From the NCBI GenBank assembly GCA_038850735.1, contig JAWCLO010000001.1:80138-144137 (forward strand): 64,000 bases of DNA, written 5' to 3'. Shown here in pieces: positions 16,338-35,967 of the stretch. Both the position numbers and the translations under genes were made by a program. The notes under the pieces were generated by a model. The model saw nothing but the letters and a program-made list of their open reading frames with translations, did no database searches and was not told where the DNA came from. The DNA is from Methanomassiliicoccales archaeon. GTDB taxonomy: Archaea > Thermoplasmatota > Thermoplasmata > Methanomassiliicoccales > JACIVX01. The stretch's first letter is position 1. The number at the start of each line of letters is the position of its first letter.

Positions 16338-16371
16338 AAAGCCAGCGTTGTGAGTGGACCGAGTGGGATTT
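16338..16371 (+). repeat. Left att repeat (attL)
   Basis: Thirty-four bases identical to 20018-20051. Its last 17 bases copy the 3' end of tRNA-Ala (discriminator, acceptor 3' strand and part of the T arm). Confidence 0.85.
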
Positions 16372-16403
16372 CTTACTCTGAAAACAACTGGATAGAGGCT
16401 AAA

Positions 16404-16422
16404 AGTGCCCTAAATCGGGCAC
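16404..16422. repeat. Hairpin word, left copy (GTGCCC/GGGCAC)
   Basis: AGTGCCCTAAATCGGGCAC occurs here and at 19991-20009. Arms GTGCCC and GGGCAC flank TAAATC. Each copy lies inside the element next to an att core, so it may be an arm-type integrase site. Confidence 0.7.
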
Positions 16423-16503
16423 CTCGCTGTGGAGGAGATCGAATCCCCTTCATATCGGAATACATACAAATCAATCCCGTCATATCGTGGAAACTACTCC
16501 TTA

Positions 16504-16563
16504 ACAAAGGTAACAAGGTAACACTTTTGACATCTGGATCAGGTGTTACCTTTGTGTTACCTT
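16504..16563. repeat. 60-bp inverted repeat, left copy
   Basis: These 60 bases are the exact reverse complement of 18892-18951. The unit is itself an imperfect palindrome: two AGGTAACA-type words, a centre containing GACATCTGGATCAG, then two TGTTACCT words. Two more AAGGTAACA words follow outside the repeat near 16571 and 16608. Confidence 0.9.
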
Positions 16564-16852
16564 TGTTTGAAAGGTAACAGTTTCCGATATCTGGATTATT
16601 TATATAAAAGGTAACACAATAAAATTATGGGACAAAAGCCATTATTAAGACTAGGAATATGTGAATTGTAAGCGTATCAATTCGACAATTTTCAATCCTC
16701 TTTTCTTATCAAGACTTTCATATGGTCAACAATCCGAAAGATTACCAATTTCTTTTAATTGGATCAATTTTATAACAATGAATCGTCTCGTTTCATCATT
16801 GTGACATAATAACCATTATATTTCAGTGTATATTCCGTAGCATTTCCAGGTA

Positions 16853-16902
16853 CTTTATAAACGATGGTTGTCGTATAATTGATGCATTATATATATTATT
16901 GA
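16853..16902 (+). promoter_or_regulatory. Promoter/operator region of the element's HTH gene
   Basis: TTTATAAA near 16854-16860 is a good TATA box for a transcript starting near 16883. The 20-base word TGCATTATATATATTATTGA at 16883-16902 recurs with one mismatch at 17374-17393 before the next small gene, so it may be a binding site for a common regulator. Confidence 0.45.
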
Positions 16903-16908
16903 TAGCAA

Positions 16909-17334
16909 ATGAAAAGCGAAATCAGACAGCGGGGACTTCAAGACGAAATAATCAACATGAGGCTTCTTGGAAAGACTTACCAAGAAATAGCAGATCAATT
17001 TGGCTTAAGTGTGAGCCAAGTAGGAAGATTTCTGAAGAGGCAGACGAGATTTTCAATTTTTCCGCAAGTTTCTCAGCTAAAAAAAGAAATTTCCCGAGAA
17101 TTTGCAGATTCAGAGCTCAAGAAACAGCTATCCGAGTATGAAACACTCTTCAACAATGCGCTTACAAATAATAACGAAAAAATGGCTTATCGGTGGGCGG
17201 CTTTAAGGCTCGAATGCCTAAAGCTTATTTACAAAGTATATTCCGGCGCCGAAGGGCCATCGACGATAAAAGTGATTTTTGAACAAGTAAAAGCTGATGA
17301 GAAAAATATAAATAATGCTTCTTCAACATCTTGA
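16909..17334 (+). CDS. HTH-domain protein of the integrated element
   Basis: The 141-residue protein has an N-terminal helix-turn-helix, MRLLGKTYQEIADQFGLSVS followed by QVGRFLKRQ (residues 17-45), of the resolvase/HTH_23 type. The rest is a predicted helical region (ISREFADSELKKQLSEYETL, then NNNEKMAYRWAALRLECLKL) that recalls small DNA-packaging or dimerisation modules but cannot be assigned. It is probably a regulator or replication accessory protein of the element. The ATG at 16909 lies very close to the TATA-like repeat; an internal ATG at 16957 is possible as start. Confidence 0.55.
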   Translation: MKSEIRQRGLQDEIINMRLLGKTYQEIADQFGLSVSQVGRFLKRQTRFSIFPQVSQLKKEISREFADSELKKQLSEYETLFNNALTNNNEKMAYRWAALRLECLKLIYKVYSGAEGPSTIKVIFEQVKADEKNINNASSTS

Positions 17335-17373
17335 CAGCCAGCATATCCTGTAACTCGTTTGTGCACTATATTG

Positions 17374-17393
17374 TGCATTATATATATCATTGA
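17374..17393 (+). promoter_or_regulatory. Second copy of the 20-base TATATAT operator-like word
   Basis: TGCATTATATATATCATTGA matches 16883-16902 with a single difference. An additional GTGCACTATATTG just before it forms a partial tandem copy. It lies 45 bases ahead of the 58-aa gene. Confidence 0.45.
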
Positions 17394-17437
17394 GAAGTCG
17401 AGGCATCTGAAACCTTGACTCTCAGGAATGATAAAAT

Positions 17438-17614
17438 ATGAGAGAAGAAGACATGAAAACGGATGTTTCTTTTGGGCTTGTTTTGCGAGTGCCAATCGAA
17501 GTTATTCCTCTGTTAAAGAGGAAAATCTTCGAGGTTGAAGGCGTCCGAACAGTGTATTATCGGATCAGTGCCAAGCATCTTGTAATAAAGGAGGAGGAAG
17601 ATGCCGAGTGCTGA
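17438..17614 (+). CDS. 58-residue hypothetical protein of the element
   Basis: A short gene with ATG at 17438 and TGA at 17612-17614. It overlaps the start of the ATPase gene by 14 bases in another frame. The protein reads MREEDMKTDVSFGLVLRVP and continues with IEVIPLLKRKIFEVEGVRTV and YYRISAKHLVIKEEEDAEC. It is probably a two-strand, one-helix fold with alternating hydrophobics; no family is recognised. Support comes from the shared operator-like word upstream, the tight overlap with the ATPase gene (whose GGAGGAGG ribosome site lies inside it), and protein-like composition. Confidence 0.5.
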   Translation: MREEDMKTDVSFGLVLRVPIEVIPLLKRKIFEVEGVRTVYYRISAKHLVIKEEEDAEC

Positions 17615-18953
17615 GATCCTCGACATCGAGCCATACAGAGAGAACGGAGAGGTGTACCTTGCGATAGTCTTTTCAAACTCTCAGGTTAAGTATGTGGAAA
17701 GGAAAAGTTTAAGAAAATGGAAAGAACAAGCCACTGAAGAAAAGGATATCAAATTTCAAACGCTCCTGCTAAACTACGAGAAGAATATTTTTTGGGAAAC
17801 AGCAGATACGCCGCTCCCTTCAGGGGTTGATGAAGATATAGATCTCTTCATGTTGCAAAGGGACATCCAGAGATGCATGAATGACTATATTGTACTAAAT
17901 GACAGCAGATATTACACTCTGGTAGCACATTTTATCATGTGCACCTGGGTTCACGAAGCATTTAATCACGCCCCGAGGTTGCTCATTTATGCCCCTACTC
18001 GCTCGGGAAAAACCCAACTTATCAGATTCCTAAGCGCCATGTGCTACAGGGGACATGATTACACCAATCCGAGCGTTGCAGCGCTCTATAGAGATATAGA
18101 AGAATACCACCCAACGATCTGCATTGATTCGTGGCAAAGGATCAACGATGAAAGAAAGAAAGAACTCGAATGGATCTACGAAAAGGGCTTCACAAGGGGA
18201 GGCAGTGTAGCAAGGGTAAACAACGACGGAGGAAAAGTGCAGAGGTTCCGAGTCTTCTCATTTATGGCAGTAGCAACTAAAGACCTCAATATCCCAGAGG
18301 ATCTGCAGAATAGAAGCATTCTCATTCCAATGAGCGAGGGGAAACCCGAGAAAAAGAACTTCGACCTGGAAGAAATCAGCAAAATCAAGAGTATGCTCCT
18401 TGGTTTGCGTTTCGCATTCCTTACCGGCAAGACTAGTGTTGAATCAAAGGAAGTCAATAATACGTCATTGGACCCAAGGTCAATAGACATGGCAGCCACT
18501 CTTTTATCACTCTGCACGAACGAGGATAATGAAGAAGCAATCCTCTCCCTCATTGAAGAAGCTCAAGAGGCTTCAAAAGAAGCTTTGAAAGAGACAACAG
18601 AAGCTGACGTATTCTATGCGCTTTGTGAGGTCATTAAGGAGAAGTTGCTCGCCTCAATTGATCAAAAGCTTGATCCATCTTCGATAACTGTCTCTGAAGT
18701 GACAGAAAAGGTAAATGAAGGCAGAGAATACCATCTGACGCACAAAAGGGTCGGACAATTACTCAGAACGCTTGGCTTTGAGTTAAGAAAGGGAAGCAGG
18801 AACAGGACATATTTCACCAGAAAGCACTTTCACAGCGTATTTAAGAACAACTGCAGCAAATTCGGTGTTACCATTGATGTTACCTTTGACGAAGGTAACA
18901 CAAAGGTAACACCTGATCCAGATGTCAAAAGTGTTACCTTGTTACCTTTGTAG
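17601..18953 (+). CDS. P-loop ATPase, DUF3631/primase-helicase-like
   Basis: The 450-residue protein carries a Walker A motif LLIYAPTRSGKTQLIRFL near residue 130 and a Walker B-like HPTICIDSWQRI near residue 172. SVAALYRDIEEYHPT before it and NIPEDLQNRSILIPM after it match the pattern of DUF3631-type ATPases found C-terminal to primase domains on plasmids and viruses (second motif 'lpdtlaDRsI'). An N-terminal primase domain is not evident, so it may be a helicase-like replication protein acting with a separate primase. The C-terminal 150 residues contain a winged-helix-like part (LTHKRVGQLLRTLGFELRKG). The final 20 codons lie in the right copy of the 60-bp inverted repeat. A GGAGGAGG site lies directly upstream. 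Confidence 0.65.
   Translation: MPSAEILDIEPYRENGEVYLAIVFSNSQVKYVERKSLRKWKEQATEEKDIKFQTLLLNYEKNIFWETADTPLPSGVDEDIDLFMLQRDIQRCMNDYIVLNDSRYYTLVAHFIMCTWVHEAFNHAPRLLIYAPTRSGKTQLIRFLSAMCYRGHDYTNPSVAALYRDIEEYHPTICIDSWQRINDERKKELEWIYEKGFTRGGSVARVNNDGGKVQRFRVFSFMAVATKDLNIPEDLQNRSILIPMSEGKPEKKNFDLEEISKIKSMLLGLRFAFLTGKTSVESKEVNNTSLDPRSIDMAATLLSLCTNEDNEEAILSLIEEAQEASKEALKETTEADVFYALCEVIKEKLLASIDQKLDPSSITVSEVTEKVNEGREYHLTHKRVGQLLRTLGFELRKGSRNRTYFTRKHFHSVFKNNCSKFGVTIDVTFDEGNTKVTPDPDVKSVTLLPL
18892..18951. repeat. 60-bp inverted repeat, right copy
   Basis: Exact reverse complement of 16504-16563. It overlaps the last codons of the ATPase gene. Two further TGTTACC words lie just before it (18867-18886). Confidence 0.9.
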
Positions 18954-19072
18954 GGGGGTAGGGCAGCAGTGTACTTTCGGTGCATATATCAATAATAGTA
19001 TAAAGAACTAGAAATAAATAATAACGCAGTGCCTCAGCATGCCTTTTATACCGGCAACCCCTACTTCAGTGA

Positions 19073-19079
19073 TGGAGGA
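19073..19079 (+). promoter_or_regulatory. Ribosome binding site of the integrase
   Basis: GGAGGAG lies five bases before the integrase ATG at 19085. Confidence 0.5.
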
Positions 19080-19084
19080 GCCTT

Positions 19085-20053
19085 ATGCCGACGAAATTGA
19101 GACTCCTCCGCAGCGATATTGAAAAGTATCTCAGCGAGCTCACGGAAGGGGGCAGGAGCTCCGTGACAATCAGAGACTACAGATATACATTAAATAAACT
19201 CTTCCAAGCCCTGAACGACTCAGGCAGAGAAATTAATCCCAGAAAGGTAACAAGAGAAGACATCCTCTTTCTAAAGGACGAGTTTCTTACTGGGGGAGAA
19301 AGATACAAGAAAAATGCGATATCGATCCTTCTCTCCTTTCTCAAGTGGTCTGGAAACACTGAGTCCACAAAATGGCGGTTTGGCTATGGCGATATTTCTC
19401 CGAAGAACATCCGTTGGTTGACCGACGAGCAGGCAGCTCTGGTCAGATTGGAGGCGAGAGGCATCGAGAGGATCATCGTGCACCTCGAACTCGATTTGGG
19501 ATTGAGAAGGTGCGGCGTGCTGAACCTAAAGCTAAAGGACTTCTACAGAGGAAGGCAAAACACCATCCACGTGCTTGAAAAGGGTAGAAATGGAGGGAAG
19601 CCGAGGATCATCCCTTGGGATCCCGAGACGGAGATGTATCTAGCGGAATACCTTGAGCTGAGGGAAAGAGAAATCGAAGAGGCGAAAAAGAAGAACCCCG
19701 ATGTCAAAATCCCAGAGAACCTGCTCATATACGAAAGGGGAGGGAAGCTGCATCCTTACAGGAAGTCAGCAATCAACAAGATTCTCGATCATCTGGGCAA
19801 GCGCCTAGGCTTTCCCCTGTCGAACCACGACCTCAGGAGGACATGCGGAAGGCAGATGTATTTCTCCGGAGTGCCGATTGAGGAGATTGCGATGATGCTA
19901 GGGCACTCGGATACGAAGACGACTCTTCATTATTTAGGCATCAACACCGATCATTTAACGGAAGCCCAGAAGAAGTATGCTGAGTACAGAAGTGCCCTAA
20001 ATCGGGCACTTTTTGAGAAAGCCAGCGTTGTGAGTGGACCGAGTGGGATTTGA
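19085..20053 (+). CDS. Tyrosine recombinase / integrase of the element
   Basis: This 322-residue recombinase has an N-terminal SAM-like core-binding domain (residues 5-95) and a C-terminal catalytic domain. The full catalytic set is visible: Arg141 in GLRRCGVLNL, Lys near 166 in EKGRNGGK, His248 and Arg251 in NHDLRRT, His274 in MLGHSD, and Tyr283 in TTLHYLG. The last 11 codons lie in the att core, and the stop codon is supplied by tRNA-derived sequence. In the excised circle the frame would instead continue for 68 codons into 16372-16577. The integrase runs antiparallel to tRNA-Ala and overlaps its 3' end by 19 bases. Confidence 0.92.
   Translation: MPTKLRLLRSDIEKYLSELTEGGRSSVTIRDYRYTLNKLFQALNDSGREINPRKVTREDILFLKDEFLTGGERYKKNAISILLSFLKWSGNTESTKWRFGYGDISPKNIRWLTDEQAALVRLEARGIERIIVHLELDLGLRRCGVLNLKLKDFYRGRQNTIHVLEKGRNGGKPRIIPWDPETEMYLAEYLELREREIEEAKKKNPDVKIPENLLIYERGGKLHPYRKSAINKILDHLGKRLGFPLSNHDLRRTCGRQMYFSGVPIEEIAMMLGHSDTKTTLHYLGINTDHLTEAQKKYAEYRSALNRALFEKASVVSGPSGI
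19991..20010. repeat. Hairpin word, right copy
   Basis: AGTGCCCTAAATCGGGCACT forms seven-base arms and is followed by TTTTG. The first 19 bases repeat 16404-16422. It is inside the integrase coding region, eight bases before the att core. It might also act as a weak terminator. Confidence 0.65.
20018..20051 (+). repeat. Right att repeat (attR)
   Basis: Thirty-four bases identical to 16338-16371. Bases 20035-20051 belong to the tRNA-Ala gene on the minus strand. Confidence 0.85.
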
Positions 20054-20108
20054 ACCCACGGCCTCCTGCTTGCAAAGCAGACGATCTTCCAGGCTGATCT
20101 ATCGGCCC
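20035..20108 (-). tRNA. tRNA-Ala (anticodon TGC)
   Basis: The 74-base gene reads GGGCCGATAGATCAG at the start and ends GGGTTCAAATCCCACTCGG then TCCA. The acceptor stem GGGCCGA/TCGGTCC contains G3-U70, the alanine identity pair, and A73. The anticodon loop is TTTGCAA with TGC. CCA is not encoded. The gene is complete and serves as integration site for the element on its 3' side. Confidence 0.95.
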
Positions 20109-35815: not shown

Positions 35816-35868
35816 AATATTCTCTTTTATGACTAATGAAATATTATTTCAAAAATAGCGATTAAAAG

Positions 35869-35967
35869 CGCGGGGAGGGGGATTTGAACCCCCGAGTCCT
35901 TTCGGACAATGGATGTTTGCCATTAATGATAGCAATCCATCGCCTTGCCGAGCTGGGCCATCCCCGC
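35869..35967 (-). tRNA. tRNA-Ser (anticodon GCT) with a 15-base intron
   Basis: Acceptor GCGGGGA/TCCCCGC with G73, and a long variable arm (GTCC GAAA GGAC), which define serine tRNA. The anticodon stem is ATGGA/TCCAT. Between them lie 22 bases; removing 15 after position 37 leaves the loop TTGCTAA with anticodon GCT. The intron is placed at 35915-35929. Confidence 0.9.

Follow-up and report, generated by a model that had tools for sequence, protein, structure and literature searches.

What becomes of an integrase whose gene runs through its own attachment (att) site and ends inside the tRNA gene used as integration target? The question is raised by a mobile element of 3.68 kb in a Methanomassiliicoccales archaeon, located in a stretch of 64,000 nucleotides (nt) of contig JAWCLO010000001.1 (positions 80,138 to 144,137), hereafter the window. 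The host is a methanogen, as mcrA is present in its genome. The element is inserted in a tRNA-Ala(TGC) gene (20034..20108, minus strand). It is bounded by an exact direct repeat of 34 nt (16338-16371 and 20018-20051), far above chance expectation, which extends with its flank to 37 nt at 97% identity. The 3' end of the tRNA-Ala(TGC) falls within the right copy. The integrase gene int (19085..20053, plus strand, ATG start) encodes a XerA-like tyrosine recombinase of 322 amino acids (aa) in the integrated, short form. Its stop codon TGA (20051-20053) falls inside the tRNA gene and is provided by the complement of the T-loop. Joining position 20051 to 16372 yields a single open frame of 390 aa with a stop at 16575-16577. 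The open frame 16372..16577 (plus strand) contributes the last 68 codons and the stop of int in the predicted circular form, which presumes circularisation of the element. A first inspection of the letters alone, the sequence-only reading, had described both endings, the tRNA-made TGA after 322 residues with all catalytic residues and the continuation by 68 residues upon rejoining. Both were confirmed, with no frame shift at the junction.

The catalytic domain of Int (PF00589) scored 60.7 bits against a curated cut-off of 27.1, and an N-terminal SAM-like domain was matched as well. The XerA equivalog model gave 101 bits, below its curated cut-off of 220; by these matches, Int is a relative of XerA and not XerA itself. 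The residues R141/R142-K166/K172-H248-R251-H274-Y283, whose catalytic roles we take from general knowledge of the tyrosine recombinase family, are all encoded upstream of the junction and are invariant in nine aligned relatives. Residues 9-299 align to XerA structures (PDB 4a8e, 5hxy), and the XerA homology ends at residue 299. The integrated open reading frame retains the N-terminal and the catalytic domain, and the exchanged residues lie after the Xer fold. Held against the pNOB8-type, in which an intact gene remains after integration, the integrated form keeps every catalytic residue and has an altered C-terminus, the tRNA-encoded end GPSGI. Fold and catalytic residues are shared with the XerA-like archaeal recombinases. 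Xer proteins do not integrate into tRNA genes, whereas the window integrase adds a C-terminal extension reading into the tRNA.

The neighbourhood of tRNA-Ala and ilvD is kept in sister genomes, three of which (G001, G002, G004) lack the element there. The left att site of the window has only 17-18 nt in common with the empty sites of G001 and G002, i.e. 20034-20051, and the repeats of relatives end 18-20 nt into the tRNA. The true core is therefore shorter than the 34-bp repeat and, by these comparisons, is 18 nt long. The repeat had been described as an att repeat of 34 bp inside the int frame; it is exact and in frame, but only the 18 nt qualify as core and the remainder is a probable scar. 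At the right att site (20018..20051, plus strand), the minimal core (20034-20051) corresponds to the complementary strand of the tRNA-Ala from its 3' end as far as the T-loop. At the left att site (16338..16371, plus strand), the minimal core (16354-16371, GTGGACCGAGTGGGATTT) is preceded by the probable scar (16338-16353). These additional 16 nt on the int side (AAAGCCAGCGTTGTGA) include the hexamer AGCCAG (16340-16345, plus strand), which is the int-side arm and recurs as such at the right site (20020-20025, plus strand). The left copy of the window therefore looks like attP. The extra 16 nt were probably left by an earlier related element, lengthening the repeat to 34 bp. A 26-nt stretch identical to the int end of the window element adjoins another tRNA-Ala on contig C3 of the same genome (G000:C3:110500-110620; L041 1400-1560), and a similar stretch adjoins the tRNA-Ala of G003. 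Both would represent scars of earlier insertions. The second tRNA-Ala on C3 is of the CGC type by reading and was called tRNA-Pyl by ARAGORN; its D-arm region seems to contain an additional segment, which may be an unusual intron.

Symmetric motifs surround the core. AGCCAG lies on the int side, about 30 nt before the core end, and CTGG(A/C/T)T on the other side, 16-18 nt after the core end. Outside both, palindromes of the form CC-N5-7-GG were found, giving the site layout [palindrome]-AGCCAG-core-CTGGCT-[palindrome]. Since AGCCAG and CTGGCT are reverse complements, attP is roughly symmetric. In the window, the mirror of AGCCAG across the core is CTGGAT (16388..16393, plus strand), with the conserved distance of 16 nt from GGGATTT to CTGG. 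The palindromic arm site AAGTGCCCTAAATCGGGCAC is located at the left end of the element (16403..16422), and an identical copy lies within the 3' end of int (19990..20009). The palindrome half-site is the same at both ends in six of seven elements and differs between elements (permutation 6/5040, hand-aligned). By this pattern, the palindromes look like arm-type sites for a DNA-binding protein. The attR-like pattern AGCCAG-N5-10-core-tRNA occurred in 18 of 400 genomes, the reversed pattern in none.

It is proposed, as the likely though far from certain explanation, that the 3' end of int accommodates attP and that the exchange of the tail is a by-product, with both forms active and the direction set by the arms and an accessory protein. 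Int would recombine the 18-nt core, corresponding to the 3' end of tRNA-Ala up to the T-loop. In the circle, the core would be flanked by the mirrored arms AGCCAG and CTGGCT and by two element-specific palindromes. Integration would leave one arm on each side and place the tRNA, with a TGA in its T-loop complement, after the int-side arm; the gene would therefore encode 322 aa in the integrated state and 390 aa in the circle. Both forms are presumed active, and the arms would be bound by Int or by an accessory protein. Direction would be set by the distribution of the arms (two in attP, a single one in attL and in attR) together with an element-encoded DNA-binding protein.

Related integrases of the order occur in two layouts, the frame either entering the tRNA or stopping before it. 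In the overlap layout, the frame enters the tRNA by 20-22 nt, with the exceptions of 64 nt (G033) and 48 nt (G068). This layout was found at tRNA-Ala in eleven genomes (G016, G033, G028, G013, G037, G052, G025, G050, G019, G040, G068) and at tRNA-Trp in G027; members of another order of the class have it at tRNA-Ala (G260) and tRNA-Val (G148). In the second layout, the gene ends short of the tRNA (tRNA-Ile, -Pro, -Trp, -Val or -Met), with a gap of about 29-153 nt. In G227, a relative of the same class, the core is immediately preceded by a TGA. The layout requires three changes on a tree of 37 rows, at least two of them forced, compared with 12.6 in shuffles. The integrases ending inside their tRNA target thus group as a deep clade by this tree, and the layout appears to be kept over deep divergence. 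Related free elements with an integrase ending before att had been named as evidence against two integrase versions. Integrases of sister clades and of G227 do end there, though in integrated or displaced copies.

Wherever the other end of an element was located, the rejoined frame is open, with tails of 17-103 codons. Tails from located left ends comprise 33 (G016), 25 (G033), 33 (G028), 35 (G037) and 103 codons (G050), and the frame is also open in the window element and in G138. Three left ends found later had open tails as well (25, 19 and 26 codons). The closest match of the window tail, from G003, has 25 codons and is shorter than the 68 of the window. Tandem arrays of related elements (G016:C4:103000-131000; G045:C133; G138:C60) contain an int frame or its relic, followed by the core and the left end of the neighbour, without a tRNA. 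As these arrays carry the fused frames physically, such frames exist in DNA and not by construction alone. The array on C60 of G138 was initially a candidate for a free plasmid, which was dropped, as the contig has chromosomal genes and a second core. In addition, a second element fragment was observed in the genome of the window (G000:C24, 5553 bp; L037), with an int 87% identical. This int is cut off by the end of the contig within the att region (GAAAAAGCCAGCGTT); a free copy, another insertion and a strain variant are candidates.

The open tail may be a property of the DNA site or of the protein. Tail differences are not enriched at third codon positions (0.43, 0.48, 0.40). Nor is there a third-position excess in the final 66 nt of the integrated gene; further upstream, an excess was present (0.49, 0.55, 0.72; five sequences). 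It is limited to the region upstream of -66 nt from the core end, close to the end of the XerA homology at residue 299. An open stretch of at least 16 codons was present in 10/10 rejoined tails, compared with 2/10 for each of the other frames. A motif-aware null model, with columns sampled independently, gave a chance of 0.79 for an open 16-codon tail, and 10/10 a p of about 0.1. Because of the lacking third-position excess and of this null result, the DNA site appears to explain most of the tail conservation. A protein-level conservation of the tail, suggested by a shared tryptophan, was mostly rejected, as its codon (TGG) is part of the CTGG motif. An inverted copy (16494..16566, 93%) of the GGTAACA-rich 3' end of the putative replication gene rep makes up the distal part of the 68-codon tail. 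A second tRNA-like T-arm, located in the tail (16434-16454), had no other copy in the genome. The proposal that the two integrase versions set the direction of recombination was not borne out. The tail shows no third-position excess and follows a DNA motif, its openness is nearly what the motif predicts, the window tail was lengthened by the inverted rep-end copy, and relatives stopping before att exist. Nothing yet indicates that the tail does anything, and a direction-setting switch is unproven.

Several observations weigh against a pure DNA-site explanation. In 16/16 members, the int frame reaches the core without a stop; stops interrupt the other two frames in 14/16 and 12/16, a count biased by members partly chosen for being open. 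Tails ending in K or R amount to 7/11, compared with 1/11 in each of the other frames. A hydrophobic-x-R/K end is present in 8/14 circular-form tails (FER, FER, FVR, LLR, IRK, YRK, IER, YKR) and in none of the other frames inspected. The tips IER and YKR belong to two of the three left ends found after the K/R ending was spotted. Several relatives with a stop before att end similarly (VSR, ISR, VAR, VCR, FAR). The kept-open frame and these tips suggest some constraint at the protein level. Since the terminal motif was chosen post hoc and the rows are related, the tip is regarded as a lead, not a result.

The strongest alternative to the by-product reading is an integrase dependent on its state. 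The circular tail would be a functional C-terminal peptide, serving activity, an oligomer contact or as a stability signal. Integration would swap in the GPSGI end, and the two forms would favour different reactions or lifetimes. This is judged unlikely, although the tails open in all ten elements, the three opened later, the tips shared with relatives of the other layout and the precedent of integration-dependent immunity in mycobacteriophages (PMC9262239) speak for it. The absent third-position excess, the openness expected from column frequencies, the variation of tail length from 17 to 103 codons, the repeat-derived length of the window tail, the post hoc choice of the tip among related rows and the sister clades without the tail layout speak against it. 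Similarly doubtful is a more specific version, according to which the circle provides the peptide and integration takes it away through the stop from the tRNA T-loop complement. Recombination would become state-dependent without a switch gene, and the circle would restore a hydrophobic-x-R/K tip that is permanent in relatives with uninterrupted genes.

Less probable still is a decaying or incidental frame in an immobile element, the open tail being a chance read-through. The scar-like flank of the left repeat is compatible with decay, as is the failure to find a free form in IMG/VR, plasmid or phage records. However, the catalytic residues, both att sites and the arm sites are intact, the layout is conserved over deep divergence, and an int 87% identical is present on another contig of the same genome. 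In IMG/VR viral contigs, neither single proteins nor an alignment nor two attP patterns, used as queries, detected a free form. Plasmid and phage records contained distant integrases only, the nearest named viral integrase being that of a Methanomassiliicoccales tailed virus (23%), and a wider search of genome contigs returned distant bacterial matches only. Free plasmids carrying the long form, suggested as a check by the sequence-only reading, were not found among the viral, plasmid and phage records searched; long-form frames were present in the tandem arrays. A suicidal variant of the SSV-type, in which integration disables the enzyme, shares the att site inside the int frame and is very improbable, given an exchange limited to residues after the Xer fold and an integrated frame with all catalytic residues.

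SSV-type integrases are split by integration into int(N) and int(C) and inactivated (PMC8371274). The att site inside int and the tRNA target are common to both systems; in the window, only the tail changes and the gene is not split. This part of the sequence-only reading was upheld by the whole catalytic domain, by the recurrence of the layout in many relatives and by the long-form frames of the tandem arrays. By analogy, the closest working parallel is the integration-dependent immunity of mycobacteriophages, e.g. BPs. There, attP is located in the repressor gene, attB in a tRNA gene, and the first bacterial base beside the core creates a stop. The lost repressor tail is an ssrA-like degradation tag, and the system is described as lacking both arm sites and a directionality factor (PMC9262239, PMC4557955). 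Both systems have attP in a coding gene, an early stop supplied by the host tRNA sequence and two forms differing by a tail. In contrast, the gene trimmed in the window is int instead of a repressor. The element has arm-like sites, and its circular-form tail shows no visible ssrA-like tag at its end. Pleolipoviruses have a coding sequence across attP that is present in the circle only, e.g. orf26 of SNJ2 (PMC7911831), which is essential for genome replication after excision (PMC13107129). Again, an archaeal element has an attP-spanning frame beside int only in its (here predicted) circular form. In pleolipoviruses, it is a separate gene downstream of int, whereas here it continues int in the same frame. 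No description of an integrase exchanging its own tail in this way was found in the literature, most subscription journals being outside the search.

Archaeal integrases with att in their own gene have so far been described as of two kinds, one split and inactivated by integration (SSV-type), the other remaining intact (pNOB8-type). The lineage of the window integrase presents a middle case that has persisted over deep divergence: the gene survives, the tRNA encoding its C-terminus in the integrated state and the other end of the element doing so in the free state. If the tail matters, the integrase itself would read out the integration state, in parallel to the mycobacteriophage repressor tail. 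If it is idle, the lineage still illustrates the packing of attP arms inside a coding sequence. The pattern AGCCAG-core-CTGGCT provides a DNA signature by which elements, left ends and scars can be located in the genomes of methanogens.

The element has three further genes, all on the plus strand. A P-loop protein of 450 aa (17601..18953) matches AAA weakly, is 21% identical to a plasmid protein of Haladaptatus and is a putative replication protein (rep). A helix-turn-helix protein of 141 aa (16909..17334) and a protein of 58 aa with no family assigned (17438..17614) precede it. GGTAACA repeats at 16494-16616 and 18889-18961 make up a large inverted repeat, with one arm at the left end and the other (18889..18961) at the 3' end of the putative rep gene. 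They could possibly be iterons of a replication origin. T-rich stretches resembling CTTTTTCTT were observed after the tail stop, about 80-150 nt past the core, in the left ends of L046, L047, L048, L156 and L168, and may terminate transcription of int in the circular form, whereas transcripts of the integrated gene would enter the tRNA in antisense. Elsewhere in the window (35868-35967), ARAGORN called an odd tRNA-Asp of 100 nt with the anticodon ATC, which may hide an intron or a different tRNA.

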